Shown: positions 1,842-39,054 of the stretch, piece by piece
Layout: every line of letters begins with the position of its first letter
Numbering within the stretch: the first letter of the stretch is position 1
Assembly (NCBI RefSeq): GCF_030269645.1
Contig: NZ_BSTR01000017.1
Span: forward strand, 1 to 64,000
Length of the DNA stretch: 64,000 nt
Reading direction: 5' to 3'
DNA from: Actinokineospora sp. NBRC 105648
Lineage (GTDB): Bacteria; Actinomycetota; Actinomycetes; Mycobacteriales; Pseudonocardiaceae
Notes under the pieces: generated by a model
Databases searched by the model: none
What the model was told of the DNA's origin: nothing
What the model saw: only the letters and a program-made list of their open reading frames with translations
Position numbers and translations under genes: made by a program

Positions 1842-1848
1842 GATTTCG

Positions 1849-4457: not shown

Positions 4458-4539
4458 CACGGCCCCAAACCCCAAGCCCCACACGCCCGGCCGCACGCCC
4501 AAAGATCAAGCTCCAAGCCCCACAACAGCTCCAAGACAG

Positions 4540-18368: not shown

Positions 18369-18489
18369 CTGTTGGTGTCTGGGCGCTCGGGTGCATGGTG
18401 CTTTGGGCGCCTTGGGTGCGTCCTGTGGCGCTTGTCTTGAAGGTGGGGGCTTGGGTCGCGCCCCGTGGTGCTCGTCTTGGGTGTGGGTG

Positions 18490-18629
18490 CTGGATTGAGT
18501 GAACTCGCTTTGTCTGGGGCCCCTAAGAGAAGAGGCGCGGGGGTGAAGCGGGTGGGAAAGGGATCACCCACGCCGGAACCAGGCTAGCGCCTCTTCTCTC
18601 CCCAGACAAAGCGAGTTCACTCAATCCAG
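18490..18629. repeat. P-family palindromic element, copy 2
   Basis: A 30-bp outer stem is perfect: the left arm (GAGTGAACTCGCTTTGTC at its centre) is the exact reverse complement of the right arm. Inside it, an inner stem pairs AGAGAAGAGGCGC with GCGCCTCTTCTCT around a GC-rich core. The core is identical to that of the next copy (18760-18901) but the outer arms differ. The gap 18369-18980 between convergent genes contains only these two elements and a relatively AT-rich spacer. Confidence 0.9.
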
Positions 18630-18759
18630 CAGTTGGCGGGTGACGGGGAGACTTCTGGGCCTCAATTCTATTCACCCATTCTTTCTTATTGTCTTCTTTT
18701 CCCATTCATCGACAATGGTGGGATTTGGTGGGGCTTGACCACTGCCCTCATGAGGTGTG

Positions 18760-18901
18760 GCTCGATTGGGTGGAATTGCTTTGTTTGGGGAGAGAAGAGG
18801 CGCTAGCCTGGTTCCGGCGTGGGTGATCCCTTTCCCACCCGCTTCACCCCCGCGCCTCTTCTCTTAGGGGCCCCGAACAAAGCAATTCCACCCAATCGAG
18901 C
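18760..18901. repeat. P-family palindromic element, copy 3 (inverted)
   Basis: The same core as 18490-18629 lies here in the opposite orientation. The outer arms read CGATTGGGTGGAATTGCTTT and pair with their own right partner (one mismatch in about 30). The two copies form a large inverted repeat around a 130-base spacer. Confidence 0.9.
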
Positions 18902-18980
18902 TTCCACGACGGCAACCCAGGATGGCCCGAGAGAGCGGCAGCCGAGAGCAACCAAGAGCAGCCGAGAGCACCTCAAGAGA

Positions 18981-20159
18981 TCAGCCAGGCGTGATCCGCA
19001 ACAGCTTGTCATCAGAACCATTGGAGGTGGTCACGTACAGCGAACCGTCAGCCGCGACCCGAGCGGCCCGCAACCGCCCGTACCGGTCGTCGAACTCCGG
19101 CGGGATCGCTACCGAGACCACGTTCGCCGAAGCGTCCAATGTATACAGCAGCAGCTTCGCGCCCTTCAGTGCCGTGGCGACGAGGGCGCCGTCCAACGCC
19201 CCCCACTGCGCCCCCGACAGGAACGCCGTCGCGCAGATGGCTTCCGTTGTGGTTCCGGACTCCCACTTCGCCGCCACCGCGTCCGGGTAGCGGGTCAGGT
19301 CGGTCATCGGGACGCTCTCGTCGTAGCCCGGTACCGTGCCGCCCTGTGACGGGTCCCAGCCGTAGTTCGCCCCGGGTACCAGTAGGTTGATCTCGTCGTT
19401 CTTGTCCGGTCCGTGCTCCGCTGTCAGCACCTGTCCGTTCGCCCGCACGGCAACGCCTTGCACGTTGCGGTGTCCGTAGGTGTAGACCCGTGAGCCCGGG
19501 ATCGGGTTGTCCGGCAATGGTTCCCCGGTGCGCAGGTCCACGCGCAGGACCTTGCCGCCGAGGTTTCCCTTGTCCTGCGAGAAAGTTCCCTGCGCTGTGT
19601 CGCCGGTGCCCACGAGCAGTGCGCCGTCGGCGGCGATCGTCGGGCGGCACCCGGAGTGCCGGCCGCTGGCCGCGATCGGCAGGCCGGTGAGCAGTTCCTT
19701 GACCCGGGTCGCCATCAGCTCGTCGGCTGTCAGCCGCCAGGTGACCAGGCGGATGTCCACCGGCTGGCCGTTCTCCATGTGCGTCTGGCAGGTGGTGAAC
19801 TCGCGCGAGGTGGTGAAGTCAGGGTGCACCACCAGTCCCATCAGGCCGCCCTCGCCACGGACCTGAACGGTGCTCGTGTCCGCCTTCAGCATCCGCACCG
19901 TGGCCCCGGGCTTGCCCGAGGACAGCAGGGCGATGTCGCCGGTCCGCTGGGTGATGAGCACCTTGCCGTCCGGCAGGAAGCCGATGTCCCAGCCGTGGGT
20001 CAGGCCGGTGGCCACCGTCTCCACGGTCAGCGCAGGCGCGCTCGCCCGGCTCGGCGTGGTGGCCGTCGTGCCCACCGGGACCTGACCTGCGGAAGAAGCC
20101 GCGCTGCAGCCGCCCAGGGCCAGGAGGGCGGCGATGGCGGCCGGGGAGATTCGGCGCAT
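18981..20159 (-). CDS. Secreted PQQ-dependent sugar dehydrogenase-type lipoprotein
   Basis: The 392-residue protein starts with a signal and lipobox (LLALGGC, Cys18). It continues as a beta-propeller of the glucose/sorbosone dehydrogenase family: GLTHGWDIGFLPDGKVLITQ, GEGGLMGLVVHPDF with the catalytic-His region, HSGCRPTIAADGALLVGTGD, YTYGHRNVQGVA and TAEHGPDKNDEINLLVPGANYGWD. These enzymes oxidise sugars or other aldoses with PQQ outside the membrane. No PQQ synthesis gene is in view, so cofactor and substrate are assumed from the family. It is divergent from the crotonase gene. Confidence 0.87.
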   Translation of the reverse strand: MRRISPAAIAALLALGGCSAASSAGQVPVGTTATTPSRASAPALTVETVATGLTHGWDIGFLPDGKVLITQRTGDIALLSSGKPGATVRMLKADTSTVQVRGEGGLMGLVVHPDFTTSREFTTCQTHMENGQPVDIRLVTWRLTADELMATRVKELLTGLPIAASGRHSGCRPTIAADGALLVGTGDTAQGTFSQDKGNLGGKVLRVDLRTGEPLPDNPIPGSRVYTYGHRNVQGVAVRANGQVLTAEHGPDKNDEINLLVPGANYGWDPSQGGTVPGYDESVPMTDLTRYPDAVAAKWESGTTTEAICATAFLSGAQWGALDGALVATALKGAKLLLYTLDASANVVSVAIPPEFDDRYGRLRAARVAADGSLYVTTSNGSDDKLLRITPG

Positions 20160-20253
20160 AAGTCCAGAATGCTCCCCGCCGGGTCAGCTCGCCGTACGGG
20201 CAGTGACCCTGATCTCGCCGAACCGGACACGGCGGACCGCTACCGTGACCGGC

Positions 20254-21021
20254 GTGAGCGAGCACCTCATCCTCGGCGTCGACGGCCCGGTCGCGACGCT
20301 GACCATCGACCGGCCCGCGAAGCGCAACGCGCTGAGCCACGAGATGTGGGCGGCCATCCCGGGCATCGTCGAGACCGTCGCGGCCGACGGCGCCGTGCGC
20401 GTCCTGGTCGTGCGGGGCACCGACACCTTCTCCGCGGGCGCCGACATCAGCGAGTTCGGCACGCTGCGCCGCGACGCCGCCGGGGCCAGGAGCTACGGGG
20501 CCGTGGTCGAGGCCGCCATCCGGGCGCTCACCGGCCTGGCCAAGCCGACCATCGCCGCGATCACCGGGTTCTGCATCGGCGGCGGTTGCGAGCTGGCGCT
20601 GGCCTGCGACCTGCGGGTGGCCGCCGAGGACGCCCGGTTCGGCATCACGCCCGCCAAGCTCGGCATCGTGTTCAACCTGCCGTCGACCAAGCAGCTGGTG
20701 GACGCCGTCGGCCCGGCCTGGGCCAAGCAGATCCTCTACACCGGCGACATCCTCGACGCCGCCACCGCGCTGCGGATCGGGCTGGTCAACGAGCTGCACC
20801 CGCCCGAGGAGCTGGGCAAGCGGGCCCGCGAACTGGCCGATCTGATGGCGTCCCGCTCGCAGGTGACCATCCGCGGTGCCAAGGAGATCATCGGGCGGAT
20901 CACCGACGGCCGCGCCGACGAGGACGACGAGGTGCACCTGCTCTACTCGGCCTCGGTGACCAGCGTCGACTACGTGGAGGGCGTCTCGGCCTTCTTGGAG
21001 AAGCGTTCGCCCCAGTTCTGA
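20254..21021 (+). CDS. Enoyl-CoA hydratase/isomerase family protein
   Basis: The 255-residue protein has the crotonase fold motifs DRPAKRNALS, FSAGADISEF and GGGCELALACDLRVA. Glu113 sits at the first catalytic position, but the second position, usually PE in hydratases, reads TPAKLGI (Ala134), so simple hydration may not be its reaction. GTG 20254 is chosen because the family core begins right after it; GTG 20245 is also possible. The gene is alone, divergent from the sugar dehydrogenase and convergent with the HD-domain gene five bases downstream. Confidence 0.85.
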   Translation: MSEHLILGVDGPVATLTIDRPAKRNALSHEMWAAIPGIVETVAADGAVRVLVVRGTDTFSAGADISEFGTLRRDAAGARSYGAVVEAAIRALTGLAKPTIAAITGFCIGGGCELALACDLRVAAEDARFGITPAKLGIVFNLPSTKQLVDAVGPAWAKQILYTGDILDAATALRIGLVNELHPPEELGKRARELADLMASRSQVTIRGAKEIIGRITDGRADEDDEVHLLYSASVTSVDYVEGVSAFLEKRSPQF

Positions 21022-21026
21022 GCGTT

Positions 21027-21629
21027 CTAAGAGAGTCGCGCGAGTTCCGCGGTGAGGTTCGCGCGCGCGGCCGATTCCCAGCGTTCGCGTGCCAGTCTGG
21101 TGCGGTAGAGCGACGGTAGGTCCAAGAGCCCCCGCAGGACCGCCGCGCGGCCGACGCGGAACGCGTCTTCCGGTACGTGCGCGTACTCAGCTCTTACCGC
21201 CGCGACATAAGAGTCGTAGTCAGCGGAAGCCAGGATCGCCAGGTCTGCGTCGCACAAGACTTCACCGTTGAGATCGCCCGGCTCGGTCTTGTGTCCGGCG
21301 GTCAACCGCACCAGTCGCGCGACCTCTTGCACTGCCTTCCGTGATAGCCCTAACGCGGTCAGCTCATCGGACGCTAACCGTGCGCTTTGCTCTTCGTCGT
21401 CGCCGCGGCCCTGGTAGACCGCGTCGTGGTACCAGGCCGCGAGCCGGACCAGGTCGACCGACGGCGCGTGGTCGGCGAGCAGGTCGACGCCCGCCAGCAC
21501 CGCGCGCAGGTGCGCGAGGTCGTGGTAGCGCCGGTGCGGCTCGGACCAGCGGGCGACCAGCGCCCGCCCCGTCTCGGCACCGTCCAGACCCAGCCGCGAG
21601 AGCACGGACGACCACTGCTCGACCACCAT
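21027..21629 (-). CDS. HD-superfamily metal-dependent phosphohydrolase-like protein
   Basis: The 200-residue protein has spaced metal-binding residues of HD-domain proteins: His in PHRRYHDLAHL (about 32-42), HD in AAWYHDAVYQG (about 66-76), and a later Asp in LCDADLAIL. Helices predominate throughout. Actinobacterial relatives are annotated as predicted metal-dependent HD phosphohydrolases without known substrate. It ends five bases from the crotonase stop (tail to tail) and is divergent from mfd. Confidence 0.8.
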   Translation of the reverse strand: MVVEQWSSVLSRLGLDGAETGRALVARWSEPHRRYHDLAHLRAVLAGVDLLADHAPSVDLVRLAAWYHDAVYQGRGDDEEQSARLASDELTALGLSRKAVQEVARLVRLTAGHKTEPGDLNGEVLCDADLAILASADYDSYVAAVRAEYAHVPEDAFRVGRAAVLRGLLDLPSLYRTRLARERWESAARANLTAELARLS

Positions 21630-21745
21630 GGCGGAACGCTATCGGCGCGACGCCTGTCGGTGCTACGCCGTAGGCTGGATTCCGACCCCCCAGCTCGTGC
21701 CATCCGGCTCGTACCAGCCATCTCGCACTAAGGACGACTCGTCTC

Positions 21746-25333
<3,588 letters not shown>

Positions 25334-25361
25334 GGCCGCCGCAAACAGGATCCCGGCTGCG

Positions 25362-25612
25362 GCTGGTACCGCAGCGGATAGGCCGACTCCGCTGGAAGGC
25401 GAGGGACTCGCTCCCCGCTGGTACCGCAGCGGATAGGCGGACCTCGCTGGAAGGCAAGGGATTCCCTCCCTCGCTGGTACCGCAGCGGAAGGCCGACCCC
25501 GCTGGAGGGCAAGGGACTCCTTCCTTCCTTCCTTCCTTCCTTCCTTCCTTCTCTCTCCCACCCCCCTTCCTTCCTCGCTGGTACCGCAGCGGATAGGCCG
25601 ACCTCGCTGGTA
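25362..25612 (+). repeat. G-family direct repeats with a TTCC microsatellite
   Basis: GCTGGTACCGCAGCGG occurs at 25362, 25417, 25473 and 25577, each followed by a variant of ATAGGCCGACCTCGCTGG and a purine-rich AAGGCAAGGGACT segment, so the unit is about 55 bases. The third unit is stretched to 104 bases by about eight copies of CCTT (25519-25549) and a C-rich run. The array abuts the P element at 25633. Confidence 0.8.
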
Positions 25613-25632
25613 CGCAAGTCCCGTTACGAATG

Positions 25633-25770
25633 CTCGATCTAGTGGACTCGCTTCGTGTGGGGGAGGAGTACCGCTAAACTTGCCGTGTGGTGGGGATGCC
25701 CTTCACCCGCCCTTTTTTCGCCACCGCGGTGCTCTAGGGGCCCCGCACGAAGCGAGTTCACTAGATCGAG
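25633..25770. repeat. P-family palindromic element, copy 4
   Basis: Outer arms CTCGATCTAGTGGACTCGCT and its right partner pair over 30 bases with two mismatches. The inner part is the reverse complement of the core at 38904-39040 (GGGGATGCCCTTCACCC, GCCACCGCGGTGC), so this copy is inverted. The left flank (ACGCAAGTCCCGTTACG) matches, on the other strand, the flank of copy 1 at about 240-257. Confidence 0.88.
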
Positions 25771-25861
25771 CCCCCATCTTTTCCTTGGGCAGCCCATGTG
25801 TATGTGCTCTTCGAGGGGTGCGTGCTGCCTGTGGAGTGTCGCTACCCGTGGGCCCTGAATT

Positions 25862-25967
25862 CCCTACGCCAATTATCACTACGGCCTGTGATTGTTTGTC
25901 AAGGCGGGAAAGAGTACCTTGACAAACAATCACAGGCCGTGTTTTGGCTGCGTATGGAATGCAGGGG
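25862..25967 (+). repeat. H-family hairpin element, copy 2
   Basis: A perfect 23-bp stem (25882-25904 with 25917-25939) closes on CGGGAAAGAGTA. The flanking boxes CCCTACGC and GTGTTTTGGCTGCGTATGG with GAATGCAGGG are those of the copy at 9215-9321, but the lower stem reads CCTGTGATTG here against GGCGCGGAGTG there. Confidence 0.85.
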
Positions 25968-26576
25968 GAGGGCTGGTCGGTGGGGAGACTTTGGCGGCCG
26001 AGTGCGGCTTTGTTGGGTTGAGGTGGCGTGGCGGATTGAGTGGTTGGGTTGTCGGATCGACTGGTTGGGTTTGTTGAGAGTCGAGAGCCGAGTGTGGGGA
26101 GTGAGAGCGGAGAAGCGGGAGGGGGAGAGTCGAGTGTGGAGTGCGGCTCCTGTGAACTTGGGTTACCCCGTGTCGTCGAGCTATCCGGCGAATGGCCCTA
26201 CTTCTGTTTTTGTCGGGGTTCGCCAAGTGTCGTTCCTGGTTCACCTGGCCTCTTTCGGGGGCTGGTGGCCGGGCTGACCGTGAGTGGGATCCCGGGTGGG
26301 GGTGTTTCGGTTGTTGCTGGTGGGCGGTTCCGCAAAGGTTTGCGCGCAGGTCTCGGACCCGGGTTCGGGAGCGCCCCTCCTTGCCTTCCCGGGAGTTGGA
26401 TCACGGTCTGGCGGAAATCCTCCAGGGCAGTTCGGCCCTACCGGATCACTTCTGGCGGCGACAGGGTCCGGCACGGCGGGTCGTCCCGGCATGGCGGCGG
26501 TGCTGATCTGGATGGACTAAGGACGAGGTGTTCGGCGCAGCCTGCGTGGTTGTGCCGCCCGTGATCAGGAGCAGCG
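25968..26576. other. Gene-free stretch, purine-rich
   Basis: About 600 bases upstream of the EspG-type gene hold no convincing gene on either strand. Roughly 26000-26160 is strongly G- and A-rich on the plus strand (runs such as GAGAGCGGAGAAGCGGGAGGG). Short frames exist but lack ribosome binding sites and recognisable protein motifs. Confidence 0.5.
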
Positions 26577-27320
26577 GTGACCTTGACGACCCAGCTCGGC
26601 TGGATGTTCACCCCGGATGAGTTCGGTCATGTCTGGGACCGGCTGGGCATCACCGAACTCCCGTATCCGTTGCAGGTCGCGCGGGCCGGGATCACGGCTG
26701 TCGAGCAGGCCGTTGTCGCTGACCGGGTTCGGGGCAGGTTGCGGGCGGCGGGGATTCTCGGTCGTGGTGATCGGTTGGACCCCGAGCTGGAAGCCGGTCT
26801 GCGGATGTTGGGTGCGCCCGAGGTCTCAGTGGACTCGGTGTGGATGGCCGAGGACGGGTCCGACTCGCCACACCGGGTGTTGGCGGCTCGGGTGGGGCGG
26901 CGCGCGGTGATCGCCACCCAGGAGCCTGGGCCCAGTGCGCACGTCGGTGGTGACGTCCTTGTCCGGGACGTCGACATCTCCGCGTTGGCTGCTGCCGTGG
27001 TCGCTGAGCTGCCCGCCGATCGGGCGGGTCGTACGCCGGGTGGCAGTTGGCGGGCCGAGCGGGCCGAGCAGGTCGCTGTGCTCACCGAGTTGTTGGCCGC
27101 GCGCAGGTTGCGGGCTGGGCAGCTCGGGGTGAGTTCGCGGGGGAATCGTGGATCGGCGCTGTTCTGGTTCGACGTCGCGGGCGACGGTCGGTACGCGCTG
27201 ATGCGCACGGTGCGTGGTGACGGCAGGCAGTGGGTGGCCATCGCGCCCGCGGACTCCGCCGTGCTGCGGGAGCAGTTGGCGCACATCCTGGCGCAGACCG
27301 CGGTCGAACACGGCGCGTAA
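26577..27320 (+). CDS. ESX secretion-associated EspG-family protein
   Basis: EspG proteins are cytosolic chaperones that hold the tips of PE/PPE-type substrates of type VII secretion systems. The 247-residue protein has the alpha/beta features of actinobacterial EspG-like proteins: an N-terminal FTPDEFGHVWDRLG-type segment and a C-terminal region with SALFWFDVAGDGRYALMRT. GTG 26577 follows AGGAGCAGC. No ESX machinery or WXG100 gene is nearby, so its partner is encoded elsewhere. Confidence 0.8.
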   Translation: MTLTTQLGWMFTPDEFGHVWDRLGITELPYPLQVARAGITAVEQAVVADRVRGRLRAAGILGRGDRLDPELEAGLRMLGAPEVSVDSVWMAEDGSDSPHRVLAARVGRRAVIATQEPGPSAHVGGDVLVRDVDISALAAAVVAELPADRAGRTPGGSWRAERAEQVAVLTELLAARRLRAGQLGVSSRGNRGSALFWFDVAGDGRYALMRTVRGDGRQWVAIAPADSAVLREQLAHILAQTAVEHGA

Positions 27321-27373
27321 CCCGAACGGGTGCTCGTCGGCTCGCGCGGGGAGTTGTGAGAGGCTACGGCACT

Positions 27374-28372
27374 GTGACCACCGTCATCAGTCGTCGGAGC
27401 CCGATCGTCGCGATGTTCGCCGTGCTCGGGCTGGTGCTCGGCGCCTGCGCGAGCGGGCCGAGCCAGGTGAACGCCGCCGTCGTCATCGGGGACAAGACCA
27501 TCACCGTCGACCAGGTCCAGGACCTGGTCGCCAAGGCCGTCCAGGTCGAGCCGGCGGCCAAGGTGCTGGCCGAGCAGCGCAAGCTGGACCTGCTGTCCCG
27601 GGAGATCCTGCGCAGGCTCATCGAGCACGAGCTGATCACCCACTACGCGGCCAAGAACGGGATCTCCATCGATCCCGGCCAGGTGTCGGCGGGGGCCAAG
27701 GAGCTCAACGAGACCTACAAGCAGCTGCCGACCGACGGCAGCGTCGAGCCGACCGCGGTGGTCAAGCAGGCGGCGCAGCGGGCGCTCGACCCGGAGCTGG
27801 TCGCGCACGACATCCTGCTGATGACCAAGGTCGGCGCCCAGCAGGCGCCCACCCTGCAGGTCGGCTACGACTTCACCTTCATCGCCCCGGACCCGCAGAA
27901 CCCGCAGACCGGTTCGCTGCGCGCCGAGGCGCTGGCCAAGGCCAAGCAGCTCGCCGAGAGCCCGGCCGAGGCCCGGCGGATCATCGACGCGGACCTCGCG
28001 GGCGGCAAGCAGGCGGCCAAGGACAAGACCGCGGTGGCCCAGGCCAGCCAGGCCGACGCGGGCTCGGTGCTCTTCGGCGCCCCGGCGGGCAGCGTGGTCA
28101 CCTTCCAGGCCGACCCGCAGAGCGGCGCCTGGGTGGTCGTGGTGATCCGCACCCGCGACCTCAACGGCAAGCTGCCCGCCAACGCCCCGCAGCTCACCCC
28201 GGAGCTGGCCGCCGCGGTCGGCGAGCGGGTGCTCGAGCCGGTCGTGGCCGAGCTGGGCGTCAAGATCAGCCCGCGGTACGGCGTCTGGGACGAGGTCGCG
28301 ATGGCGATCGCGCCGAGCGCGGACCAGGTGACCGGCGCGGTGCTGCCGTTCAAGAACGCCACCGCCCCGTGA
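27374..28372 (+). CDS. SurA-like / PrsA-type lipoprotein
   Basis: The 332-residue product has a signal and lipobox (LVLGAC, Cys25) and a helical SurA_N-type chaperone region (about 30-200: VIGDKTITVDQVQDLV, LSREILRRLIEHELITHY). The C-terminal part could hold a degenerate parvulin-like fold, but I see no clear catalytic parvulin motif. It probably helps secreted proteins fold outside the membrane. GTG 27374 is chosen because the signal peptide starts there. Its stop overlaps the mazG start (GTGA), so the two are translationally coupled. Confidence 0.83.
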   Translation: MTTVISRRSPIVAMFAVLGLVLGACASGPSQVNAAVVIGDKTITVDQVQDLVAKAVQVEPAAKVLAEQRKLDLLSREILRRLIEHELITHYAAKNGISIDPGQVSAGAKELNETYKQLPTDGSVEPTAVVKQAAQRALDPELVAHDILLMTKVGAQQAPTLQVGYDFTFIAPDPQNPQTGSLRAEALAKAKQLAESPAEARRIIDADLAGGKQAAKDKTAVAQASQADAGSVLFGAPAGSVVTFQADPQSGAWVVVVIRTRDLNGKLPANAPQLTPELAAAVGERVLEPVVAELGVKISPRYGVWDEVAMAIAPSADQVTGAVLPFKNATAP

Positions 28373-29328: not shown

Positions 29329-29500
29329 ACAGTCCGGCCAGTCGTCCGGGTCCGTTGTGCGGGCGGTCTAAGCGCGTCCGCGCGCGGCCGCGGCCCGGCC
29401 GGGCGCCGCTGTGCGGGCGGACTACGACAGTCGGCGGGTACCGCAGGCCAGGCCGGTGAAAGTGGGGGCGGGGGTCGGTGCCAGTGGCTAACTTGGCAAG

Positions 29501-32500
29501 GTGACAGACGCCTATCTCAGATTTCCCCACCTGCATGCGGACCTGATCACCTTCGTCGCCGAGGACGACGTGTGGCTGGCACCGGCCGAGGGCGGCCGGG
29601 CGTGGCGCCTCTCGGCCGACCAGGTGCCGGTGACCAACCCCCGGTTCTCCCCGGACGGCACCCGGATCGCGTGGGCCTGCACCCGCGACGTCGAGCCCGA
29701 GGTGCACGTGGCCCCGGTCGGCGGCGGTCCGAGCGACCGGCTGACCTACTGGGGCGATGTGAACACCAGCGTGGTCGGCTGGACCCCGGACGGCCGGGTG
29801 GCCGCCCGCAGCTCCACCGGCCGCTCGTCGATCCGGGCCACCTGGGCCTACGCGGTGCCGCTGGACGGCGCGCCCGCCGAGCCGCTGCCCTACGGCCCGC
29901 TCGCCTCGCTCGACCTGGCCGCCGACGGGGGCGTGCTGCTCGGCTCGGCCATCTCCCGCGAGCCCGCGTGGTGGAAGCGGTACCGGGGCGGCACCATGGG
30001 CAAGGTCTGGATCGATCCAGCCGGCGGTGGCGATTTCCACCGCATCCTGTCCGAGGTGGACGGCCACATCGTCAACCCGCTCTGGGTCGGCGACCGGGTG
30101 GCGTTCCTGTCCGACCACGAGGGGGTCGGCAACCTCTACTCCTGCCTGCCCGACGGCGCTGACGTGCGCAAGCACAGCGACCACGCGGAGTTCTACGCCC
30201 GTGGCGCCACCACCGACGGCACCCGGGTGATCTACCACCGCGCGGGCGAGATCTGGGTCCTGGACAGCCTCGAGCACGAGCCGCGCCGGGTCGAGGTGGC
30301 CCTCGGCGGGTCGCGCGGCCCGCGCCAGGTCCACCCGATCACCGCGGGCCACCACGTCGGCCACGTCGGACCGGACCGCACCGGCCGGGCGAGCGCGGTC
30401 GAGGTGCGCGGCACCGTGCACTGGGTGACCCACCGGCACGGCCCGGTCCGCGCGCTCTCGGTCGAGCCCGGCGTGCGCGCCCGGCTGCCGCAGGTGCTCG
30501 GCACCACCGGCACCGCGGTGTGGGTCACCGACGCCGACGGCGAGGACGCGCTGGAGTTCGGCCCGGTCGAGGGCCGCGAGCCCGGCGTGCGCCCGCGCCG
30601 GATCGCCACCGGCGAGCTGGGCCGGGTGCTGGAGCTGGCGGCGTCGCCGGACGGCCGCCGGGTCGCCGTGGTCACCCACGACGGCCGGCTGCTGCTGGTC
30701 GACGTCGACGACGGCGACGTGCACGAGGTGGTCAAGGTCCGCGAGATGGACCCGTCCGGGCTCACCTTCTCCCCGGACTCGCACTGGCTCGCCTGGGCGC
30801 ACCCCGGGCCCAGCCCGCTGCAGCACATCAAGATGGTCAACACCACCAGCCTGACCGTGGTGGACGTGACCCCGCTGCGCTTCGTCGACTCGGACCCGGC
30901 GTTCACCCTCGACGGCAAGCACCTGGCGTTCCTGTCCAACCGCAGCTTCGACCCGATCTACGACGTGCACGTGTTCGACCTGTCCTTCGCCAACGGCAGC
31001 AGGCCCTACCTGGTGCCGCTGGCGGCGATCACCCCGTCGCCCTTCGCACCCGTCCGCGAGGGGCGCGCCTTCGGTGAGGACAAGGACGACAAGGACGACG
31101 ACCGCGACGACGCCGACGACAAGACCCCCCGCACCACCGTCGACCTGGAGGGCATCGCCGACCGGGTGGTCGCCTTCCCGGTCCCGGCGGCCCGCTACTC
31201 GCGGCTGGTGGCGGTCAAGGGCGGGGTGCTCTGGCTGCGCGACCCGCTCACCGGCTCGCTCGGCGACGACCTCGACGACCTGGGCGCCGACCACCCGCGC
31301 TCGGTGCTCGAGCGCTACGACCTGGCCAAGCTCAAGGTGGACACGCTGGTCGACGGCCTGGACGAGGTCTGGCCCAGCGGCGACGGCCAGCGCATCGTGG
31401 TCCGCGACGGCCGCACCCTCAAGGTGCTGCCCGCCGACCGCAAGGGCGACAACGACGACAGCTCCGAGGACAACATCACCGTCGACCTGACCCGGGTCCG
31501 GGTGCGGGTCGACCCGGCCGCGGAGTGGCGGCAGTCCTTCGACGAGACCGGCAGGCTGATGCGCGACCACTTCTGGCGCGCGGACATGAACGGCGTCGAC
31601 TGGGCGGGCGTGCTCGCCCGGTACCGCCCGCTGGTCGACTCGCTGGGCTCGCACGACGAGCTGGTCGACCTGCTCTGGGAGGTGCACGGCGAGCTGGGCA
31701 CCTCGCACGCCTACGTGATGCCGCAGCGCGCGGGCGTCGACCACCGCCGCAGGCTCGGCCTGCTCGGCGCCGACCTCTCCCGCGACGCCGACGGCGTCTG
31801 GCGGATCACCGCGATCGTGCCGGGGGAGAGCTCCGACCCGCGGGCCCGCTCGCCGCTGCGCGCGCCCGGCGTCGGGGTGCGCGAGGGCGACGCGGTCGTC
31901 GCCGTGGACGGCATCACCGTCGACCCGCTGCGCGGCCCGGCGGCGCTGCTGGTGGGCACCGCGGGCTGCCCGGTCGAGTTGACCATCGAGCCCAAGGGCG
32001 GCGGCGCGACCCGCCGCGTGGTGGTCGTGCCGCTGCTCGACGACATGCCGCTGCGCTACCAGGCGTGGGTGTCCGGCCGCCGCTCCTACGTGCACACCGC
32101 CACCGACGGCAAGGTGGGCTACCTGCACGTTCCCGACATGGTCGCCAACGGCTGGGCGCAGCTGCACCGCGACCTGCGGCTGGAGATGCGCCGCGACGGC
32201 GTGGTCGTCGACCTGCGGGAGAACCGCGGCGGGCACCTGTCGCAGCTCGTCGTGGAGAAGCTCAGCAGGCGGATCGTCGGCTGGGGCCGCGCGCGCGACG
32301 GCTACTACGAGGAGACCTACCCCCTCGACGCCCCGCGCGGGCCGGTGGTCGCGGTCGCCGACGAGTTCTCCGGCTCCGACGGCGACATCGTCAACGCCGC
32401 GATCAAGGCGCTCGGCATCGGCCCGGTCGTGGGCACCCGGACCTGGGGCGGGGTGGTGGGCATCGACATGCGCTACCGGCTCGTCGACGGCACCCTGGTC

Positions 32501-32707
32501 ACCCAGCCGCGCTACGCCACCTGGATGGAGGGCGTCGGCTGGGGGATGGAGAACCACGGCGTCGACCCCGACGTCGAGGTGGTCACCCGGCCGCAGGACC
32601 ACGCGGCCGGGCGCGACCCGCAGCTCGACACCGCGATCCGGATCGCCCTGGAGCGGCTGGCGGCCAAGCCCGCGGCCACGCCGCCCGACCTCCCCCCGTT
32701 GGGCTAG
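29501..32707 (+). CDS. Tricorn-type S41 family protease
   Basis: The 1068-residue protein follows the tricorn layout: N-terminal beta-propellers of WD40/TolB type (about 1-480), an acidic, Lys/Asp-rich insertion near 527-545, a second propeller, a PDZ domain (about 760-840) and a C-terminal S41 catalytic core. The probable nucleophile is Ser959 in FSGSDGD, and the core ends with WMEGVGWGMENHGVDPD. Tricorn proteases cut peptides released by proteasomes into small fragments, and actinobacteria have proteasomes. No signal peptide is seen, so it should be cytosolic. Confidence 0.92.
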   Translation: MTDAYLRFPHLHADLITFVAEDDVWLAPAEGGRAWRLSADQVPVTNPRFSPDGTRIAWACTRDVEPEVHVAPVGGGPSDRLTYWGDVNTSVVGWTPDGRVAARSSTGRSSIRATWAYAVPLDGAPAEPLPYGPLASLDLAADGGVLLGSAISREPAWWKRYRGGTMGKVWIDPAGGGDFHRILSEVDGHIVNPLWVGDRVAFLSDHEGVGNLYSCLPDGADVRKHSDHAEFYARGATTDGTRVIYHRAGEIWVLDSLEHEPRRVEVALGGSRGPRQVHPITAGHHVGHVGPDRTGRASAVEVRGTVHWVTHRHGPVRALSVEPGVRARLPQVLGTTGTAVWVTDADGEDALEFGPVEGREPGVRPRRIATGELGRVLELAASPDGRRVAVVTHDGRLLLVDVDDGDVHEVVKVREMDPSGLTFSPDSHWLAWAHPGPSPLQHIKMVNTTSLTVVDVTPLRFVDSDPAFTLDGKHLAFLSNRSFDPIYDVHVFDLSFANGSRPYLVPLAAITPSPFAPVREGRAFGEDKDDKDDDRDDADDKTPRTTVDLEGIADRVVAFPVPAARYSRLVAVKGGVLWLRDPLTGSLGDDLDDLGADHPRSVLERYDLAKLKVDTLVDGLDEVWPSGDGQRIVVRDGRTLKVLPADRKGDNDDSSEDNITVDLTRVRVRVDPAAEWRQSFDETGRLMRDHFWRADMNGVDWAGVLARYRPLVDSLGSHDELVDLLWEVHGELGTSHAYVMPQRAGVDHRRRLGLLGADLSRDADGVWRITAIVPGESSDPRARSPLRAPGVGVREGDAVVAVDGITVDPLRGPAALLVGTAGCPVELTIEPKGGGATRRVVVVPLLDDMPLRYQAWVSGRRSYVHTATDGKVGYLHVPDMVANGWAQLHRDLRLEMRRDGVVVDLRENRGGHLSQLVVEKLSRRIVGWGRARDGYYEETYPLDAPRGPVVAVADEFSGSDGDIVNAAIKALGIGPVVGTRTWGGVVGIDMRYRLVDGTLVTQPRYATWMEGVGWGMENHGVDPDVEVVTRPQDHAAGRDPQLDTAIRIALERLAAKPAATPPDLPPLG

Positions 32708-32713
32708 CGCGTT

Positions 32714-32747
32714 CCTGCCGTGGGGGGCGCGCGTCCCCCACGGCAGG
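32714..32747 (+). terminator. Hairpin between the tricorn protease and methyltransferase genes
   Basis: A perfect 13-bp stem (CCTGCCGTGGGGG with CCCCCACGGCAGG) and an 8-base loop begin seven bases after the protease stop. The right arm contains GGCAGG, the only plausible ribosome binding site of the next gene. The hairpin could end transcription, restrict translation of the methyltransferase, or both. Confidence 0.7.
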
Positions 32748-32756
32748 ATGGCGATC

Positions 32757-33593
32757 ATGGGATTCGACACCGACACCGCCCGGATGATCGCGGCCAACGA
32801 GGCGAACTGGGACGCGCGCACCCCGATCCACCTCGCCAGCGCCTTCTACGACGTGGCCAACCGCGACCCGGAGGTGTGGTTCGCCGAGTTCGAGTGGGCC
32901 GACCTGGGGGAGCTGGCGGGCAAGGACGTCGCCCACCTGCAGTGCCACATCGGGGCCGAGACCATCGCCCTGGCCCGCCGCGGCGCCCGCGTGGTGGGCC
33001 TGGACATCTCGGCGGAGTCGGTGCGCGCCGCCCGCGAGCTCGCCGCGGCCAAGGACGTGGAGATCGACTACGTCAAGGCCGACGTGTTCGCCGCCGCCGA
33101 CGCGCTGGGCCGCGAGCGCTTCGACGTCGTCTACACCGGCAAGGGCGCCATCTGCTACCTGCCCGACCTGGACGCCTGGGCGGCCCAGGTCGCCGCGCTG
33201 CTGCGCTCGGGCGGCCAGGTGTACGTCGTGGAGTTCCACCCGCTGCTGAACGCGCTGGGCCCGACGCCGCCCGCCGACGGGAGCGAGGACCTGCTGCTGC
33301 GCCACGACTACCTCGGCGGCCGCGGCGAGGTCGAGCGGGACGCCACCCGCACCTACACCGACGGCCCCGAGCTGACCGAGGCCAAGGTGTCCTTCGAGTG
33401 GCCGCACGGGCTCGGCGAGGTGGTGAACGCGCTGGTGGGAGCCGGTCTGCGGATCGCCGGACTGCGCGAGACCGAGCAGCTGCCCTGGCCCCGCTGGTCC
33501 ACCATGACCGTTCCCGATGGCGGCTGGTTCGCGCTGCCCGCCGCGGCGCCCCGGATCCCGCTGATCTACGCCCTGCGGGCCGTGAAGCCCTGA
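32757..33593 (+). CDS. Class I SAM-dependent methyltransferase
   Basis: The 278-residue protein has the SAM-binding core: motif I-like DVAHLQCHIGAETIALARRG, an acidic VVGLDIS at the end of beta-2, EIDYVKADVF and FDVVYTGKGAICYLPDL. The N-terminal ANEANWDARTPIHL is typical of a group of actinobacterial methyltransferases whose substrate is unknown. ATG 32757 is preferred to ATG 32748 because GGCAGG then stands nine bases upstream. A hairpin buries that site. Confidence 0.82.
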   Translation: MGFDTDTARMIAANEANWDARTPIHLASAFYDVANRDPEVWFAEFEWADLGELAGKDVAHLQCHIGAETIALARRGARVVGLDISAESVRAARELAAAKDVEIDYVKADVFAAADALGRERFDVVYTGKGAICYLPDLDAWAAQVAALLRSGGQVYVVEFHPLLNALGPTPPADGSEDLLLRHDYLGGRGEVERDATRTYTDGPELTEAKVSFEWPHGLGEVVNALVGAGLRIAGLRETEQLPWPRWSTMTVPDGGWFALPAAAPRIPLIYALRAVKP

Positions 33594-33679
33594 TCGAACG
33601 GTGCCGGTCGCTGGTGCCGTGATCGTCTGCGGCCGATGGAGAAACCGGTGAGGCTGCACGTCGACCTGCCGCGGGCCGA

Positions 33680-33770
33680 GGGTTCGCCCATACCGAGTTC
33701 GGCTGGGTGCAGTCCTACGCTCGCGCTGCGTGCGCCCGCCGATCCTGTACGGCGACGTCTCCCGGCCCGG
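33680..33770 (+). pseudogene. metE: Frameshifted fragment of cobalamin-independent methionine synthase
   Basis: Starting in one frame, GFAHTEFGWVQSY matches the conserved GFxxTxxGWVQSYGSR segment of MetE. The match continues one base out of frame as SRCVRPPILYGDVSRP, the next part of the same motif. A single missing G in the GGC codon explains the shift. Only about 30 codons remain, with no similarity on either side. The rest of 33594-33963 shows nothing else. Confidence 0.72.
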
Positions 33771-33963
33771 CGAGTGGCTGCTGCGTGGGCAGCGCCGGGA
33801 GTCGGTGCTGCCGGGGTCCCTGCCGAGCGCCGCTGACCCGGGGCTGACGAGCGCTCGGCTCCCGGCGTGTTTGGCCGGCGTCCGCGCAGGTCAGCGCTTC
33901 GGGGTCGGCGGCGAAGCGTCCGGTTTGGCCGTTGTCCGCGCGGGGAACACGTAGCCTGGTTTT

Positions 33964-34788
33964 GTGGCCGCCTCCCCGACTCCTCCGCCGACCACGCTCG
34001 CCCTGCTGATGGAGCCCTCGCCCGAGCCGTCGCGCCCGCGCCGCCGCTGGGTGGGCCGGGTGCTGCTGGTCGTGGTGCTGGTCGCGCTCGGCGCCGGAGC
34101 GGTGGTGCTCTTCGAGTCCGTCGACGACAGCCCGCCCGCCGACCGCTTCGAGCGCTTCACCGTCGCCGACCTCGACGTCGAGGTCGGCGCCCTCCCGCCG
34201 GTCGGCGCGGCGGTCCCGCAGACCCGCGAGTGGGCCGACCGGCTGGCCGCGGTCACCGACATCCCGGCCCGGACGCTGGTGGCCTACCTCAACGCCGAGG
34301 CGGCGATCCGCGGCAGTCAGCCGGACTGCAAGCTGTCCTGGGTCACCCTCGCGGGCGTCGGCCGGGTCGAGTCCCACCACGGCCGCTACGGCGGCACCCG
34401 GGTGGGCGAGGACGGGCAGCTGTCCAAGCCGATCATCGGCGTCCCGCTCGACGGTTCCCCGGGTGTGCAGGCGATCCAGGACACCGACGGCGGCAGGCTC
34501 GACGGCGATCCCCGGTGGGACCGGGCGGTCGGCTCGATGCAGTTCCTCCCGGCCACCTGGGCCCGCTGGTCCCAGCGCGCCAACGGCGACGGCAGGCAGG
34601 CGGACCCGCAGAACGTCGACGACTCGGCCCTGACCGCGGCCCGCTACCTGTGCGCGATGGGCGGCGACCTGTCGACCGGCCCGGGGTGGTGGAAGGCAGT
34701 GCTGACCTACAACGAGTCCAAGAAGTACGGCCGCGACGTCTACAGCGGCGCCGACGCCTACGCCCGCAAGGCCGCGGAGATCGGCTAG
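33964..34788 (+). CDS. Membrane-anchored lytic transglycosylase, LpqU-like
   Basis: The 274-residue protein has a short cytoplasmic Pro-rich N-terminus, one membrane segment (about 29-50) and an extracellular MltB-type lytic transglycosylase domain. GVGRVESHHGRYGG contains the catalytic Glu (about residue 135), and AVGSMQFLPATWARW and AARYLCAMGGDL follow. Such enzymes cut the glycan strands of peptidoglycan. It is in the position of lpqU (Rv1022) between mazG and eno, but has a membrane segment instead of a lipobox. Its stop overlaps the convergent Imm1 gene by four bases. Confidence 0.88.
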   Translation: MAASPTPPPTTLALLMEPSPEPSRPRRRWVGRVLLVVVLVALGAGAVVLFESVDDSPPADRFERFTVADLDVEVGALPPVGAAVPQTREWADRLAAVTDIPARTLVAYLNAEAAIRGSQPDCKLSWVTLAGVGRVESHHGRYGGTRVGEDGQLSKPIIGVPLDGSPGVQAIQDTDGGRLDGDPRWDRAVGSMQFLPATWARWSQRANGDGRQADPQNVDDSALTAARYLCAMGGDLSTGPGWWKAVLTYNESKKYGRDVYSGADAYARKAAEIG

Positions 34789-35198
34789 CCCCGCCGCCAG
34801 GCGAGGCAGGTGGGGATAGCCGCGGAGTCGAGGAACTCGGCGACGGCGGTGGTCAGGTCCTTGATCGAGATGCCGGACCCGGGTGGGAACTCGTCGTCGT
34901 CGTACTCGCCGCCTGGTGATCCGGGCAGGCCGATCGGGTAGTGCTTGCCGCTGGCCATGTCTTGGTAGCTGAGGTAGCCGAAGCCGTCGTGCACAGCAGC
35001 GAAGACGTCGTGGTCGGGTAGTTGCCGAGCCTGTTCCCACAGGGGCCGTCCGAGGTGGACCAGACTGGCGAGCAGCGCACCGGGCAGGCTGATCCGGCGC
35101 ACGAAGTCGACCACATCGGCCTGGGACGTGAGCTGCACGCGGTCACCACCCTGCGAGCCGTCGGGGTGGTCGATCGCCCAGTAGGCGTCAATCGTCAT
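34785..35198 (-). CDS. Imm1-family immunity protein
   Basis: The 137-residue protein begins MTIDAYWAIDHPDG. It has the Imm1 pattern of small hydrophobic strands and the conserved HDGFGYLSYQDMASGKHYPIG and EFPPGSGISI segments. Imm1 proteins neutralise polymorphic toxins, among them DddA-like (SCP1.201) DNA deaminases. A decayed frame with a deaminase-like HVE motif lies directly upstream and its stop overlaps this start (ATGACGATTGA). ATG 35198 is preferred to ATG 35216 because it begins the family pattern. The gene looks intact although its toxin does not. Confidence 0.75.
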   Translation of the reverse strand: MTIDAYWAIDHPDGSQGGDRVQLTSQADVVDFVRRISLPGALLASLVHLGRPLWEQARQLPDHDVFAAVHDGFGYLSYQDMASGKHYPIGLPGSPGGEYDDDEFPPGSGISIKDLTTAVAEFLDSAAIPTCLAWRRG

Positions 35199-35572
35199 CG
35201 GGAGACTTCCCGACATAGGTGCGTCCTTCTCCAGAGGAGCTCGTCCAGCACCCCCTCGGCCACCATCCGGCAAGCGAACTGGATCTCGACGTGCCGGGCG
35301 AGCCTGGACACCGCCGCGCCCGCTGATGAGTCCGAACTCCTCCGCGCGGCGGTTCGCCGCGTCGAAGTACGGCCCTTGGCCGTTGACCAGGAGTACCGCA
35401 TTGCCTGCGGCGTCGTGCCACAGGCAATGCGTTCCGGCGACGATGGGCGGGGCAGCCTGACCAGCTGCTCCGCTTGCGTCGTCGTGCCGCTCGGCCCCGA
35501 GGTCGGCGCGTGATCGAGGTGCCAGACGGCGATGCCCTCAAGCAGTGCCTGGACCCGTTCGAGCGCCGGGAT
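35188..35572 (-). pseudogene. Decayed DddA-like deaminase toxin tip
   Basis: Three overlapping frames together resemble the end of small DddA-like toxins. One gives LERVQALLEGIAVWHL. A second gives HDAAGNAVLLVNGQGPYF and AANRRAEEFGL. The first frame resumes with RLARHVEIQFACRMVAEGVL, where HVE is the zinc- and proton-handling motif. The PCxxC half of the active site is absent; the DNA jumps to GRTYVGKSPDDD and a stop inside the Imm1 start. Two frameshifts and an internal deletion explain this. A short upstream frame (35603-35857) and the Imm1 gene complete the locus. Confidence 0.6.
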
Positions 35573-35602
35573 CAGTTCCCGGTCGGTCGGCGTCGGTTGA
35601 GA

Positions 35603-35857
35603 TCAGCCGCTGAGGTGGTGTTGGGCGGCGGTGGTGATGTCGTTCTGCGCCTGCTCGATGGCCGCGCCCAGGTCGGCGGCCAGGGACTGGGCCCGGCCGA
35701 TGGACTGCTGCACGGTGGCCGCGCTGGTGGTGTTGCCGAGCAGGTGGGTGACCTGGCCCAGGGCGGTGTTCAGCTCGTTGTTGATGGACTGGACCTGGCC
35801 CGCGGGCAGGCGGTCGGCGAGGTTGGCCAGTTCTTGGGCTTGGTCTTGGATGCTCAT
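35603..35857 (-). CDS. Small helical protein, possibly DUF6244-like
   Basis: The 84-residue product is entirely helical and rich in Ala, Gln and Leu (ANLADRLPAGQVQSINNEL, LAADLGAAIEQAQNDITTAA), resembling short coiled-coil proteins that accompany small toxins in actinobacteria. It lacks Cys and any signal peptide. ATG 35857 is well placed behind AGGATGAGC-like purines. It is followed on the same strand by the decayed deaminase toxin and Imm1 gene, so it probably served as the N-terminal or partner component of that toxin system. Family assignment is weak. Confidence 0.6.
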   Translation of the reverse strand: MSIQDQAQELANLADRLPAGQVQSINNELNTALGQVTHLLGNTTSAATVQQSIGRAQSLAADLGAAIEQAQNDITTAAQHHLSG

Positions 35858-35950
35858 CCTCCGGATTCTCCCGTCACAAGATCGGTTGCCGCAGACGAGG
35901 TCATCTTCGCCGACGGGGCCCGGCCCGGCCCAGGTGAATCCCCCGAATGC

Positions 35951-36337
35951 TCAGGAGTCTCGCTCGACCGCGATGCGGGCGTTCACCTCGCCGAGGGCCT
36001 CCTGGTACTCCGGGAGGGGGTTCATCGCGACGGCCATCCGCAGTTGGGTCTGCGCCTCGGTGAGCCGGGCCTGCCGCTGCAGCGTCTTGCCGAGGGCGAA
36101 CCGGGCGTAGTGGTCGGTGGGGTCGAGGTCCAGGACCCGCAGGAAGGCGGCCTCGGCGCGGCGGAGCTGGGCCGAGCCGAAGTAGGCGCGGCCCGCCAGC
36201 AGCTGCACGCTCGGGGTGTCCGGCGCGGCCTCCAGGACCGGCGCCAGGGCGGCCAGGGCGTCCAGGGGCCTGCGTTGCGCCACCAGTGACTCTGCGTGGC
36301 GGAACGCGTCGAACGCGTCAACCGGCTCCTCCGTCAT
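35951..36337 (-). CDS. Tetratricopeptide repeat protein
   Basis: The 128-residue protein is made of about three TPR units (AESLVAQRRPLDALAALAPVLEAAP, AYFGSAQLRRAEAAFLRV, ARFALGKTLQRQARLTEA split into their helices). TPRs are protein-binding scaffolds. ATG 36337 has no obvious ribosome binding site and may be leaderless; the frame extends 12 codons further. It is divergent from eno. Confidence 0.78.
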   Translation of the reverse strand: MTEEPVDAFDAFRHAESLVAQRRPLDALAALAPVLEAAPDTPSVQLLAGRAYFGSAQLRRAEAAFLRVLDLDPTDHYARFALGKTLQRQARLTEAQTQLRMAVAMNPLPEYQEALGEVNARIAVERDS

Positions 36338-36390
36338 AGTCAGATCAACATTACGCGGCGGGGCCCGGTTCATCGACCCCCTTGGTGTGA

Positions 36391-37767
<1,377 letters not shown>

Positions 37768-37771
37768 CCGC

Positions 37772-38293
37772 ATGGTCGGGCGCGGCACCGAGCGCGGTGG
37801 GCGCGGGCGGCGGGACACCGCCGCCCGGCGGCCCGAACGCGTGCGGCGCACGCGCCCGGCCGCGGCCACCCCGCGCGACGAGCCGCGCCCGGCCGCCCGG
37901 CGCAAGCGGGGGCCGGTCCTGGGCCTGTCCACCACCCGCCGGGCCGCGATCTTCGCGACGGTGGTGTGCGCGCTGGCGCTGAGCGTGGCGGTCCCCCTGC
38001 GCACGTACCTGTCCCAGCGCGACGACGTGGAGCTCCAGGAGCACCGGCAGGCGGAGTTACGCGCCCAGGTCGACGAGCTGACCCGGCGCAAGGAGCAGCT
38101 GGCCGACCCGGAGCAGGTGCGGATCGAGGCGCGCGAGAGACTGCGCTACGTGATGCCAGGAGAAACGCCGTACATGGTCCAGCTCCCGTCGGACACCGGC
38201 GGCCCCGGCGCGGGCCAGCCGCCGACCCAGTCGATCCCGCAGCAGGCCTGGTACCAGAGCCTGTGGGACTCGGTGTCCGGGGCGCGCGGCTGA
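37772..38293 (+). CDS. FtsB/DivIC-type septum formation initiator
   Basis: The 173-residue bitopic protein has a very basic cytoplasmic N-terminus (1-56), a membrane segment (about 57-77) and an extracellular coiled coil (about 80-112, YLSQRDDVELQEHRQAELRA) followed by RIEARERLRYVMPGETPY. FtsB-type proteins bridge FtsL and FtsQ in the divisome. ATG 37772 is four bases after the eno stop and the stop overlaps the next start (TGATG), so the three genes form one unit. Confidence 0.88.
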   Translation: MVGRGTERGGRGRRDTAARRPERVRRTRPAAATPRDEPRPAARRKRGPVLGLSTTRRAAIFATVVCALALSVAVPLRTYLSQRDDVELQEHRQAELRAQVDELTRRKEQLADPEQVRIEARERLRYVMPGETPYMVQLPSDTGGPGAGQPPTQSIPQQAWYQSLWDSVSGARG

Positions 38294-38781
38294 TGCTGGA
38301 ACCGGTTTCCGAGGCCGATCGCGCCGCCGTGGCCGTCCAGTTGGGACGCGAGCCGAGAGCCATCCGGGCGGTGGCGGCCCGGTGCCCCAGCGGGCACCCG
38401 GCGGTGATCCAGACCAGCCCCCGGCTGGAGGACGGGACACCGTTCCCGACGCTGTACTACTTGACCTGCTCGCGGCTGGCCGCGGCCATCTCGACCCTGG
38501 AGACCACCGGGGTGATGAAGTCGATGACCGATCGGTTGGCGGACGACCCGGAGCTGGCCGCGGCTTATCTGGCGGCGCATGAGGCTTACCTGGCTGAGCG
38601 GGACGCGCTGGACTCGTTGGGGACCCAGGTGACCGCTGGGGGGATGCCTGGGCGGGTGAAGTGCCTGCACGCCCTGGTGGCGCACTCGTTGGCGGTGGGG
38701 GCTGGGGTCAATCCGTTTGGGGATGAGGCTGTTTCGCTGCTGGCTGGGGCTTGGCCTACTGGGGAGTGCGCGGCTTCCTGA
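38293..38781 (+). CDS. DUF501 domain-containing protein
   Basis: The 162-residue protein has the DUF501 pattern: QLGREPRAIRAVAARCPSGH with a conserved Cys, FPTLYYLTCSRLAAAISTLE, and GGMPGRVKCLHALVAHSLA with a second Cys-His segment. The function is unknown, though the fixed link to enolase, an FtsB-type gene and ppx across actinobacteria suggests a conserved role. ATG 38293 overlaps the previous stop by one base. Confidence 0.9.
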   Translation: MLEPVSEADRAAVAVQLGREPRAIRAVAARCPSGHPAVIQTSPRLEDGTPFPTLYYLTCSRLAAAISTLETTGVMKSMTDRLADDPELAAAYLAAHEAYLAERDALDSLGTQVTAGGMPGRVKCLHALVAHSLAVGAGVNPFGDEAVSLLAGAWPTGECAAS

Positions 38782-38903
38782 GCGGCTGCTGGCTTGTGGT
38801 GCGGGTTGCCGTCGGGTGTTGCTGTCTTCGTTGCTCGGGTCGTGATCGTGGGCGTCGGTCTGGGGGGTTTTGCTGCCCTTCGTTGCCCGGGTTACAAGCG
38901 GGG

Positions 38904-39040
38904 CTCGATCTAGTGAACTCGCTTCGTGTGGGGCCCCTAGAGCACCGCGGTGGGGAAAAGCGTGGGGTGAAGGGCATCCCCACCACCGGTCAAGTTTAGC
39001 GGTGCTCTCCCCCCACACGAAGCGAGTCCACTAGATCGAG
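38904..39040. repeat. P-family palindromic element, copy 5
   Basis: Outer arms of 30 bases (CTCGATCTAGTGAACTCGCT outward half) pair with one mismatch. The inner stem pairs AGAGCACCGC with GCGGTGCTCT, and GTGGGG pairs with CCCCAC deeper inside. The right flank reads GATCGAGCATCCGTAGCGGG as in copies 1 and 4. It lies between the convergent DUF501 and AidB-type genes. Confidence 0.9.
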
Positions 39041-39054
39041 CATCCGTAGCGGGG

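Follow-up and report, generated by a model that had tools for sequence, protein, structure and literature searches.

A strand-polar nested hairpin repeat of Actinokineospora, probably mobile, and its association with DUF222/HNH genes in related genera

Introduction

The first 64,000 nucleotides of contig NZ_BSTR01000017.1 from Actinokineospora sp. NBRC 105648 (the window: 64 kb on contig C17 of the source genome G000, an assembly of 8.43 Mb in 149 contigs) contain several copies of a nested palindrome of about 140 bp, whose stem sequences differ from copy to copy. This raises the question of whether such palindromes are decaying DNA, folds kept by selection, or the debris of a mobile element. 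One protein of the window shows 73-80% identity to proteins from nine Actinokineospora records, the top values among the 74 loci listed, which points to that genus. We label the palindrome P and define its strand A as the one bearing GGGGCCCCTA on the 5' side; strand B is the complement, carries TAGGGGCCCC on its 3' side and is the strand that tolerates G.U pairs. The strands given below for P copies are those of strand B. Our analysis indicates that P is a real, large and fold-constrained repeat family, which is probably mobile and has a coding partner in some related genera.

Architecture and polarity of the P fold

The window has four intact P copies and one decayed copy. Two intact copies of the P2 subfamily, at 18488..18631 (minus strand) and 18760..18901 (plus strand), were delineated by sequence, RNA folding and a covariance model, and constitute an inverted pair (B- ... 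B+) around a gene-less spacer of 128 bp (18632..18759, from the repeat finder and the covariance model); their arms are 100% and 97% complementary, respectively (repeat finder, I19 and I23). The other two belong to the P5 subfamily. One of these, at 25632..25771 (plus strand; sequence and covariance model), has its strand B sense to the upstream gene, a script-called gene whose stop lies about 299 bp away, and the other, at 38903..39041 (minus strand), adjoins two convergent genes and is sense, by its strand B, to the one that is nearer. On both strands of all four intact copies, RNA folding yields z-scores of -6.9 to -13.2, with 0 of 200 shuffles as stable in each case. The original prediction counted five copies; the four intact ones are present as described, whereas the one placed at 117-257 is a remnant only (124..229, minus strand), recognized by BLAST, the covariance model and folding, which has lost its left outer arm. 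It retains a BLAST match at 136-229 (88%) and a covariance model match at 124-195 (E 1e-8), and its fold is no more stable than those of shuffles (z -0.41 and -0.07).

The fold has three stems. An asymmetric internal loop separates the outer stem, of about 31 bp, from the inner one, of 11-14 bp, and a conserved stretch such as CTAAGCTT or CTAAACTTG lies between the inner and the apical stem. The two sides of the loop on strand B read GGA (or similar) and TAGGGG, with variants. Comparison across species shows arm sequences that are species-specific and an architecture that is the same throughout. The outer stem has GGGG at its foot, which may be replaced by GGAG in other genera; the pairing partner then differs as well (CTCC), as does the loop (AGAGG in place of AGGGG). 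The polarity proposed earlier is borne out, in that GGGGCCCCT stands on one side only in all four intact window copies. Across the family this motif is strongly but not wholly conserved, with variants in other species, and its invariance in the 28 copies aligned below is partly due to the collecting script having demanded it. A search of the whole window with Rfam 15 at gathering cut-offs gave no match to P; its two matches, a SAM riboswitch and a tRNA, lie elsewhere. One P copy searched at E-values up to 10 recovered just two matches, far below their gathering scores. An intrinsic terminator has a GC-rich hairpin with a U run directly after it; the hairpin of P is strong, and, judged by eye, a clean U run is mostly missing on the 3' side of strand B.

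Covariation of the arms and strand bias

In a 28-row alignment, 97.9% of the cells of the stems are paired. Shuffles reach 83.4%, and slid controls, which retain the shared ancestry of the rows, 30-42%. Changes on both sides are seen in 28 of the 41 pairs, and none of 500 shuffles reaches any of the five measures used, though these shuffle counts are not probabilities because the rows share ancestry. The structure was drawn from the same alignment, and intact copies are favored in it because they were collected by similarity and by a pairing script. Compensated arm changes between copies, as originally predicted, go far beyond the controls, and the covariance model, genome and relative searches and covariation test proposed with that prediction uncover a large family whose arms covary beyond the controls.

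The residual mismatches between the arms are strongly asymmetric. Among 70 distinct copies, oriented by GGGGCCCCT alone, 147 mismatched cells are G.U on strand B compared to 25 on strand A. In a broader set of 128 distinct copies from 22 genomes, from which stems of fewer than 14 pairs were dropped and in which most matches came from a strand B model, the outer stem on strand B shows 171 G.U, 9 A.C and 35 other mismatched cells; counting each mismatch once per genome and position leaves 46 G.U against 8 A.C. Since the mismatches are mostly G.U on one strand, it is the fold of that strand which seems to be selected. A strand preference is expected neither from decay nor from hairpin-templated repair. 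Covariation and the strand-specific G.U excess support the claim of a selected fold instead of ordinary decayed DNA.

Variants within G000, scored only in copies with intact TAGGGGCCCC and as variant types in small numbers, offer a view of when this selection acted. One-sided variants present in more than two copies comprise five G.U and no A.C, whereas those private to one or two copies comprise four A.C, two G.U and three others. Of the private variant types, 10/11 in P2 and 6/14 in P5 are changed on both arms. These small counts suggest to us that the fold was under selection in the lineage that amplified, with little selection afterwards and some arm-to-arm correction.

Family size and phyletic distribution

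The covariance model R1, built from 28 copies, finds 44 full-length and two partial copies in 1,236,599 bases of G000, which scales to about 300 copies in the 8.43 Mb genome. A P copy starts within the first 300 bases of contigs C1, C9, C13, C46, C55, C64 and C77; contig breaks may therefore fall at P, which would make the copy number an underestimate. R1 matches 15 of 16 Actinokineospora genomes at an E-value limit of 1e-4, where no more than 150 candidates were scored in each genome. Under stricter filters, it matches 17/150 genomes sampled from the family Pseudonocardiaceae, 11 of them outside Actinokineospora, and 2/296 genomes sampled from the class, both Actinokineospora. The plasmid DNA collection has no match to P, and a search of viral contigs by one exact pattern found none.

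P displays several traits of miniature inverted-repeat transposable elements (MITEs): it is short, dispersed and non-coding and has terminal inverted repeats. Pairs in the sampled part of G000 occur in two arrangements, eight as B+..B- and three as B-..B+, the former having 80-102-bp spacers that are self-folding to varying degrees. A short leftover of a partner arm is present in several of the single copies, suggesting that some singles may be decayed pairs.

Association with DUF222/HNH genes in other genera

From seven genomes belonging to other genera, we studied 20 loci picked for R1 matches that were strong or paired. In 13 of these, drawn from three genera, a DUF222 gene is enclosed by two inverted P copies, always in the order B- then B+ (13/13), with 1.4-2.0 kb from P start to P start. 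The enclosed gene has about 380-400 codons, apart from L263, where the called frame has 557. The window pair at 18488/18760 has this same arrangement with 128 bp in place of the gene. The remaining seven loci include one cut by a contig end, which also has the gene, and six without it. At eight further short loci outside Actinokineospora, DUF222 stands beside P in one (L148) and not in seven, giving DUF222 at 15 of the 28 P places examined outside that genus.

Pfam detects DUF222 in all ten open reading frames (ORFs) scanned (E 7e-17 to 5e-33) and an HNH domain above the cut-off in four; the DNA of the other three gene-bearing loci is 88-94% identical to scanned loci or to each other. NCBIfam yields sub-threshold matches in one of five ORFs, the best being to the IscB model (20.9 bits against a cut-off of 175). 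The elements are multi-copy within a genome, with 83-94% identity in aligned pieces over 1.3 kb. As a separate observation, four such elements in genome G022 (L265, L272, L273 and L279) have GTCGCGAAGCGGCGATGAAATGACCCGGCTCGTCAT outside P at both ends and, beyond it, degenerate inverted flanks, as if centered in an older inverted repeat.

A DUF222/HNH gene between inverted P copies recalls the ends of insertion elements, which makes the window copies look non-autonomous and MITE-like. The original prediction named a match to an insertion sequence (IS)-derived MITE with coding parents as something that would refute it. This was found in part: inverted P copies flank DUF222/HNH genes in other genera, but no such gene is found beside P in Actinokineospora. 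The evidence from covariation stands alongside a coding partner elsewhere and is not overturned by it. The same prediction invoked a repetitive extragenic palindrome (REP)-type transposase (RAYT, Y1_Tnp) as a possible mobilizer, which finds no support: PF01797 has no match in G000, while the same search matches 5 of 14 control genomes.

Three intervals between P copies in Actinokineospora, read from sequence, have other contents. In G000, one of about 1.1 kb holds a single hydrolase-like gene, and in G006 one of 3.5 kb holds purine-biosynthesis-like genes and a membrane protein. In G001, an interval of about 1.0 kb (L365:5763-6794) encloses a broken transposase-like frame.

Genomic context of the copies

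The context of P was assessed in 78 copies from five Actinokineospora genomes, taken by contig in G000 and around known copies in G005, G006, G001 and G009. Using a simple gene caller, 75 of these could be placed, none of them within genes; 40 lie in convergent, 28 in co-directional and 7 in divergent gaps. The 43 placed copies of G000 are split into 23 convergent, 19 co-directional and one divergent, in a genome sample where, counting gaps of 150 bp or more, divergent ones account for 53,438 of 236,069 intergenic bases. Where a single copy lies between co-directional genes, its strand B is predominantly sense to them (15/18, with three antisense; 10/11 sense in G000 alone).

Genes followed closely by a sense P tend to lack a hairpin of their own. 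Six genes were skipped for short distance; among the others in G000, G005 and G006, the 80 nt that follow the stop contain a hairpin below -20 kcal/mol in 5/23 genes with a sense P within 230 nt, versus 251/456 genes without P (Fisher p 0.002). The corresponding counts are 11/20 for sense far, 4/9 for antisense near and 7/11 for antisense far copies. A C-rich flank travelling with P may be part of the cause.

The copies are lineage-specific. P stands downstream of an iron-sulfur reductase gene and an acyl-CoA dehydrogenase gene (both read from sequence) in G000 and in 0/15 relatives at each, except that G002 has a weak match of 93 nt located some 400 bp downstream from the former gene. After the stop of the iron-sulfur gene, 13 of the 15 relatives have an ordinary GC-rich inverted repeat, where G000, by reading, has P instead. 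For the window gene adjoining the copy at 18760, P was found in two of 36 loci searched, once about 650 bp downstream and once on the upstream side. A conserved regulatory RNA at fixed places is ruled out, as P sites differ between species.

A different palindrome of about 70 bp was seen in G010 (L158), about 15-90 bp after the stop of the iron-sulfur gene, inside the loop of a terminator hairpin. The terminator hairpin otherwise matches that of G014 (L156), so that the two resemble a filled and an empty site of a hairpin-loop insertion.

Provenance of P and alternative explanations

The explanation that we favor, at about an even chance of being right, is that P is the structured end module of mobile elements of Pseudonocardiaceae, of which the window copies are non-autonomous, MITE-like derivatives. 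The full element would comprise two inverted P hairpins around a DUF222/HNH gene, as in the other genera, and the window copies would be its solo hairpins and gene-less inverted pairs. During spread, strand B would have to fold, as RNA or single-stranded DNA, into the outer, inner and apical stems; hence, arm changes in the amplifying lineage would be compensated or become G.U. The copies would come to rest between genes, and a copy lying in sense orientation shortly after a gene may provide that gene with its 3'-end hairpin. We infer from these patterns that P moves through its fold, that the DUF222/HNH protein drives the movement and that resident copies act as 3' ends. A more specific version, namely, a new mobile system in which an HNH nuclease binds a structured single strand, probably strand B RNA from the 3' end of the element's gene, that directs insertion, with P-only copies spreading in trans, appears quite unlikely on present evidence.

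Several observations weigh against the end-module explanation. DUF222 is present in only two of the 16 Actinokineospora genomes (14/16 show none), no DUF222 found in that genus has P beside it, and the window has no DUF222 match. The only match in G000 (G000:C14:120240-121175) has no P within the 20 kb examined around it. Four home-made profiles found no DUF222 remnant in the Actinokineospora loci scanned, a set that omits L262-L282 and L303-L334, except for the known gene in L283. DUF222 genes are common in the order, with the domain in 123/150 genomes sampled, and five distant plasmid records also have it. Conversely, DUF222 occurs without P: genome G030 of the Pseudonocardiaceae combines at least 14 matches to DUF222 with none to P, and P lies within 1.5 kb of DUF222 in 0/30 loci of other families of the order. 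A large hairpin of any sequence was found at 0/33 non-P DUF222 loci, as against two in 146,091 control bases, with the same finder detecting 12 of 14 ends in seven P-flanked loci. The P-flanked proteins themselves form three separate groups (support 1.0 each) interleaved with others. These groups, together with DUF222 genes lacking P, suggest that P ends were exchanged between lineages, or that P pairs capture DUF222, or that DUF222 elements enter P pairs. Also unfavorable are the absence of any target-site duplication seen in flanks read by eye, where the ends are not sharply defined, the presence of 6/32 copies in divergent gaps outside G000 (against 1/43 within it), and the acyl-CoA dehydrogenase site of G000, which still has an ordinary hairpin between the gene and P.

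The separate DUF222 groups with the same ends, along with the 13 of 28 P places outside Actinokineospora that lack DUF222, speak for an alternative in which another recombinase (HUH, tyrosine or IS transposase) acts on P as a DNA hairpin or cruciform, and DUF222 is cargo or a later insertion between two P copies. G.T is better tolerated than A.C in folded single-stranded DNA too, so the mismatch bias would fit this alternative as well, as would the two pair arrangements in G000 and the broken transposase-like frame of G001. However, all 13 gene-bearing loci share one arrangement, no other gene was seen to recur between P copies in the few intervals read, and Y1_Tnp is absent from G000, the one transposase family covered by that search; we accordingly rate this alternative as rather unlikely. 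The orientation data lend themselves to a different account, by which P is mainly a host-serving RNA 3'-end element, a terminator or exonuclease-blocking hairpin kept copy by copy, with its spread being old or incidental. It would explain the excess of sense singles, the genes with a near sense P that often lack their own hairpin, the replacement of the ordinary inverted repeat behind the iron-sulfur gene and the G.U bias on one strand. Yet P is not at orthologous places, the private one-sided variants, on small numbers, lack the G.U preference of the shared ones, as if resident copies were unselected, the 3' flank mostly has no clean U run, and the antisense near copies also show a milder, non-significant drop in hairpins (4/9). 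On balance, we consider a primarily host-serving role unlikely. Finally, hairpin-templated correction, i.e. template switching between arms, could keep the arms complementary without selection, and the many private variant types changed on both arms are in line with it. This neutral process predicts strand symmetry and the loss of steady G.U positions, but these positions persist and are strand-specific, and it leaves the conserved internal loops and the sense orientation unexplained; as the sole explanation of P it is very unlikely.

Comparison with known repeats

P resembles YPAL and other palindromic MITEs in kind (PMC2229807). YPAL (RU-2) of Yersinia is described as an abundant, highly folded, intergenic element of about 168 bp with internal inverted repeats, located at or next to sites of dyad symmetry, expressed with upstream genes and generating target duplications of 3-26 bp (PMC2229807, PMC2267715). 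By description, and not by sequence comparison, P is like it in size class, intergenic location, folding, abundance and internal inverted repeats. It differs in that no target duplications are seen for P, and in that the descriptions consulted name no coding partner for YPAL. ERIC and IRU are likewise portrayed as folded, dispersed and non-autonomous, with the orientation of ERIC mattering for upstream mRNA, and bacterial MITEs as usually rich in AT, with target duplications and TA ends in several of them (PMC2229807, PMC10969869). P shares with these the character of a folded, dispersed, non-autonomous repeat, but is unlike the MITEs so described in being GC-rich and in having covarying stems of changing sequence.

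REPs are palindromes of 20-40 bp with GTAG or CGTC tags (PMC3733652). Like REPs and BIMEs so characterized, P is palindromic and polar and often occurs in inverted pairs, but it is a nested hairpin of about 140 bp and not a short tagged palindrome, and no Y1_Tnp was found in G000. IS1397, ISKpn1 and others are reported to insert into REP palindromes (PMC1525189); there the palindrome is the target, whereas P looks like an element end, though a target role is possible. The pneumococcal SPRITE, a repeat with a terminator-like sequence (PMC10969869), is comparable to P in this respect, again by description and not by sequence.

A parallel to the gene-bearing elements is REP13E12 of mycobacteria, a multi-copy repeat with a DUF222/HNH gene (PMC10589994, PMC13061034); one report calls these repeats devoid of a defined biological function (PMC13061034). 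The P-flanked elements similarly have a DUF222/HNH gene in a multi-copy repeat, but P ends were found in only three Pseudonocardiaceae genera in the searches made and at none of the 30 loci of other families. The covarying nested fold with strand polarity and the link to DUF222/HNH look new. Among the matches listed in literature searches, neither the P repeat nor hairpin-ended DUF222 genes are described in any title or abstract start. A hairpin that is conserved, covaries and is specific to one strand, standing at each end of some DUF222 elements, would be a candidate substrate for a common gene family and would make the role of that family testable. P also offers a clean example of repeat evolution constrained by a fold, rich in natural variants across many species, and may illustrate how such repeats are taken over as the 3' ends of genes.

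Flanking modules and other features of the window

Recurrent sequence modules adjoin several P copies. The copy at 38903..39041 is bordered by TTCGTTGCCCGGGTTACAAGCG at 38879..38902 and ATCCGTAGCGGGGCCGGCGGTACCAGCGG at 39042..39070, both of kinds common to many P5 copies, while a degenerate repeat of the GCTGGTACCGCAGCGGATAGGCCGACC type (25577..25630, plus strand, from the repeat finder) abuts the copy at 25632..25771; similar flanks stand before many P5 copies. Degenerate repeats of this type, about 54 bp and shorter, adjoin P across 25362-25630 of the window and in other intergenic regions of G000, and C-rich flanks like these also occur in G022. Elsewhere, the window has repeated inverted repeats of the CCATCGATGG type at 352-622 and three tandem repeats, 35-36 bp apart, of the CCGAGCCCAGGCTTCACATC type at 4359-4472. 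The two Rfam matches are the SAM riboswitch at 1753-1842 (plus strand) and the tRNA gene at 16347-16417 (minus strand).

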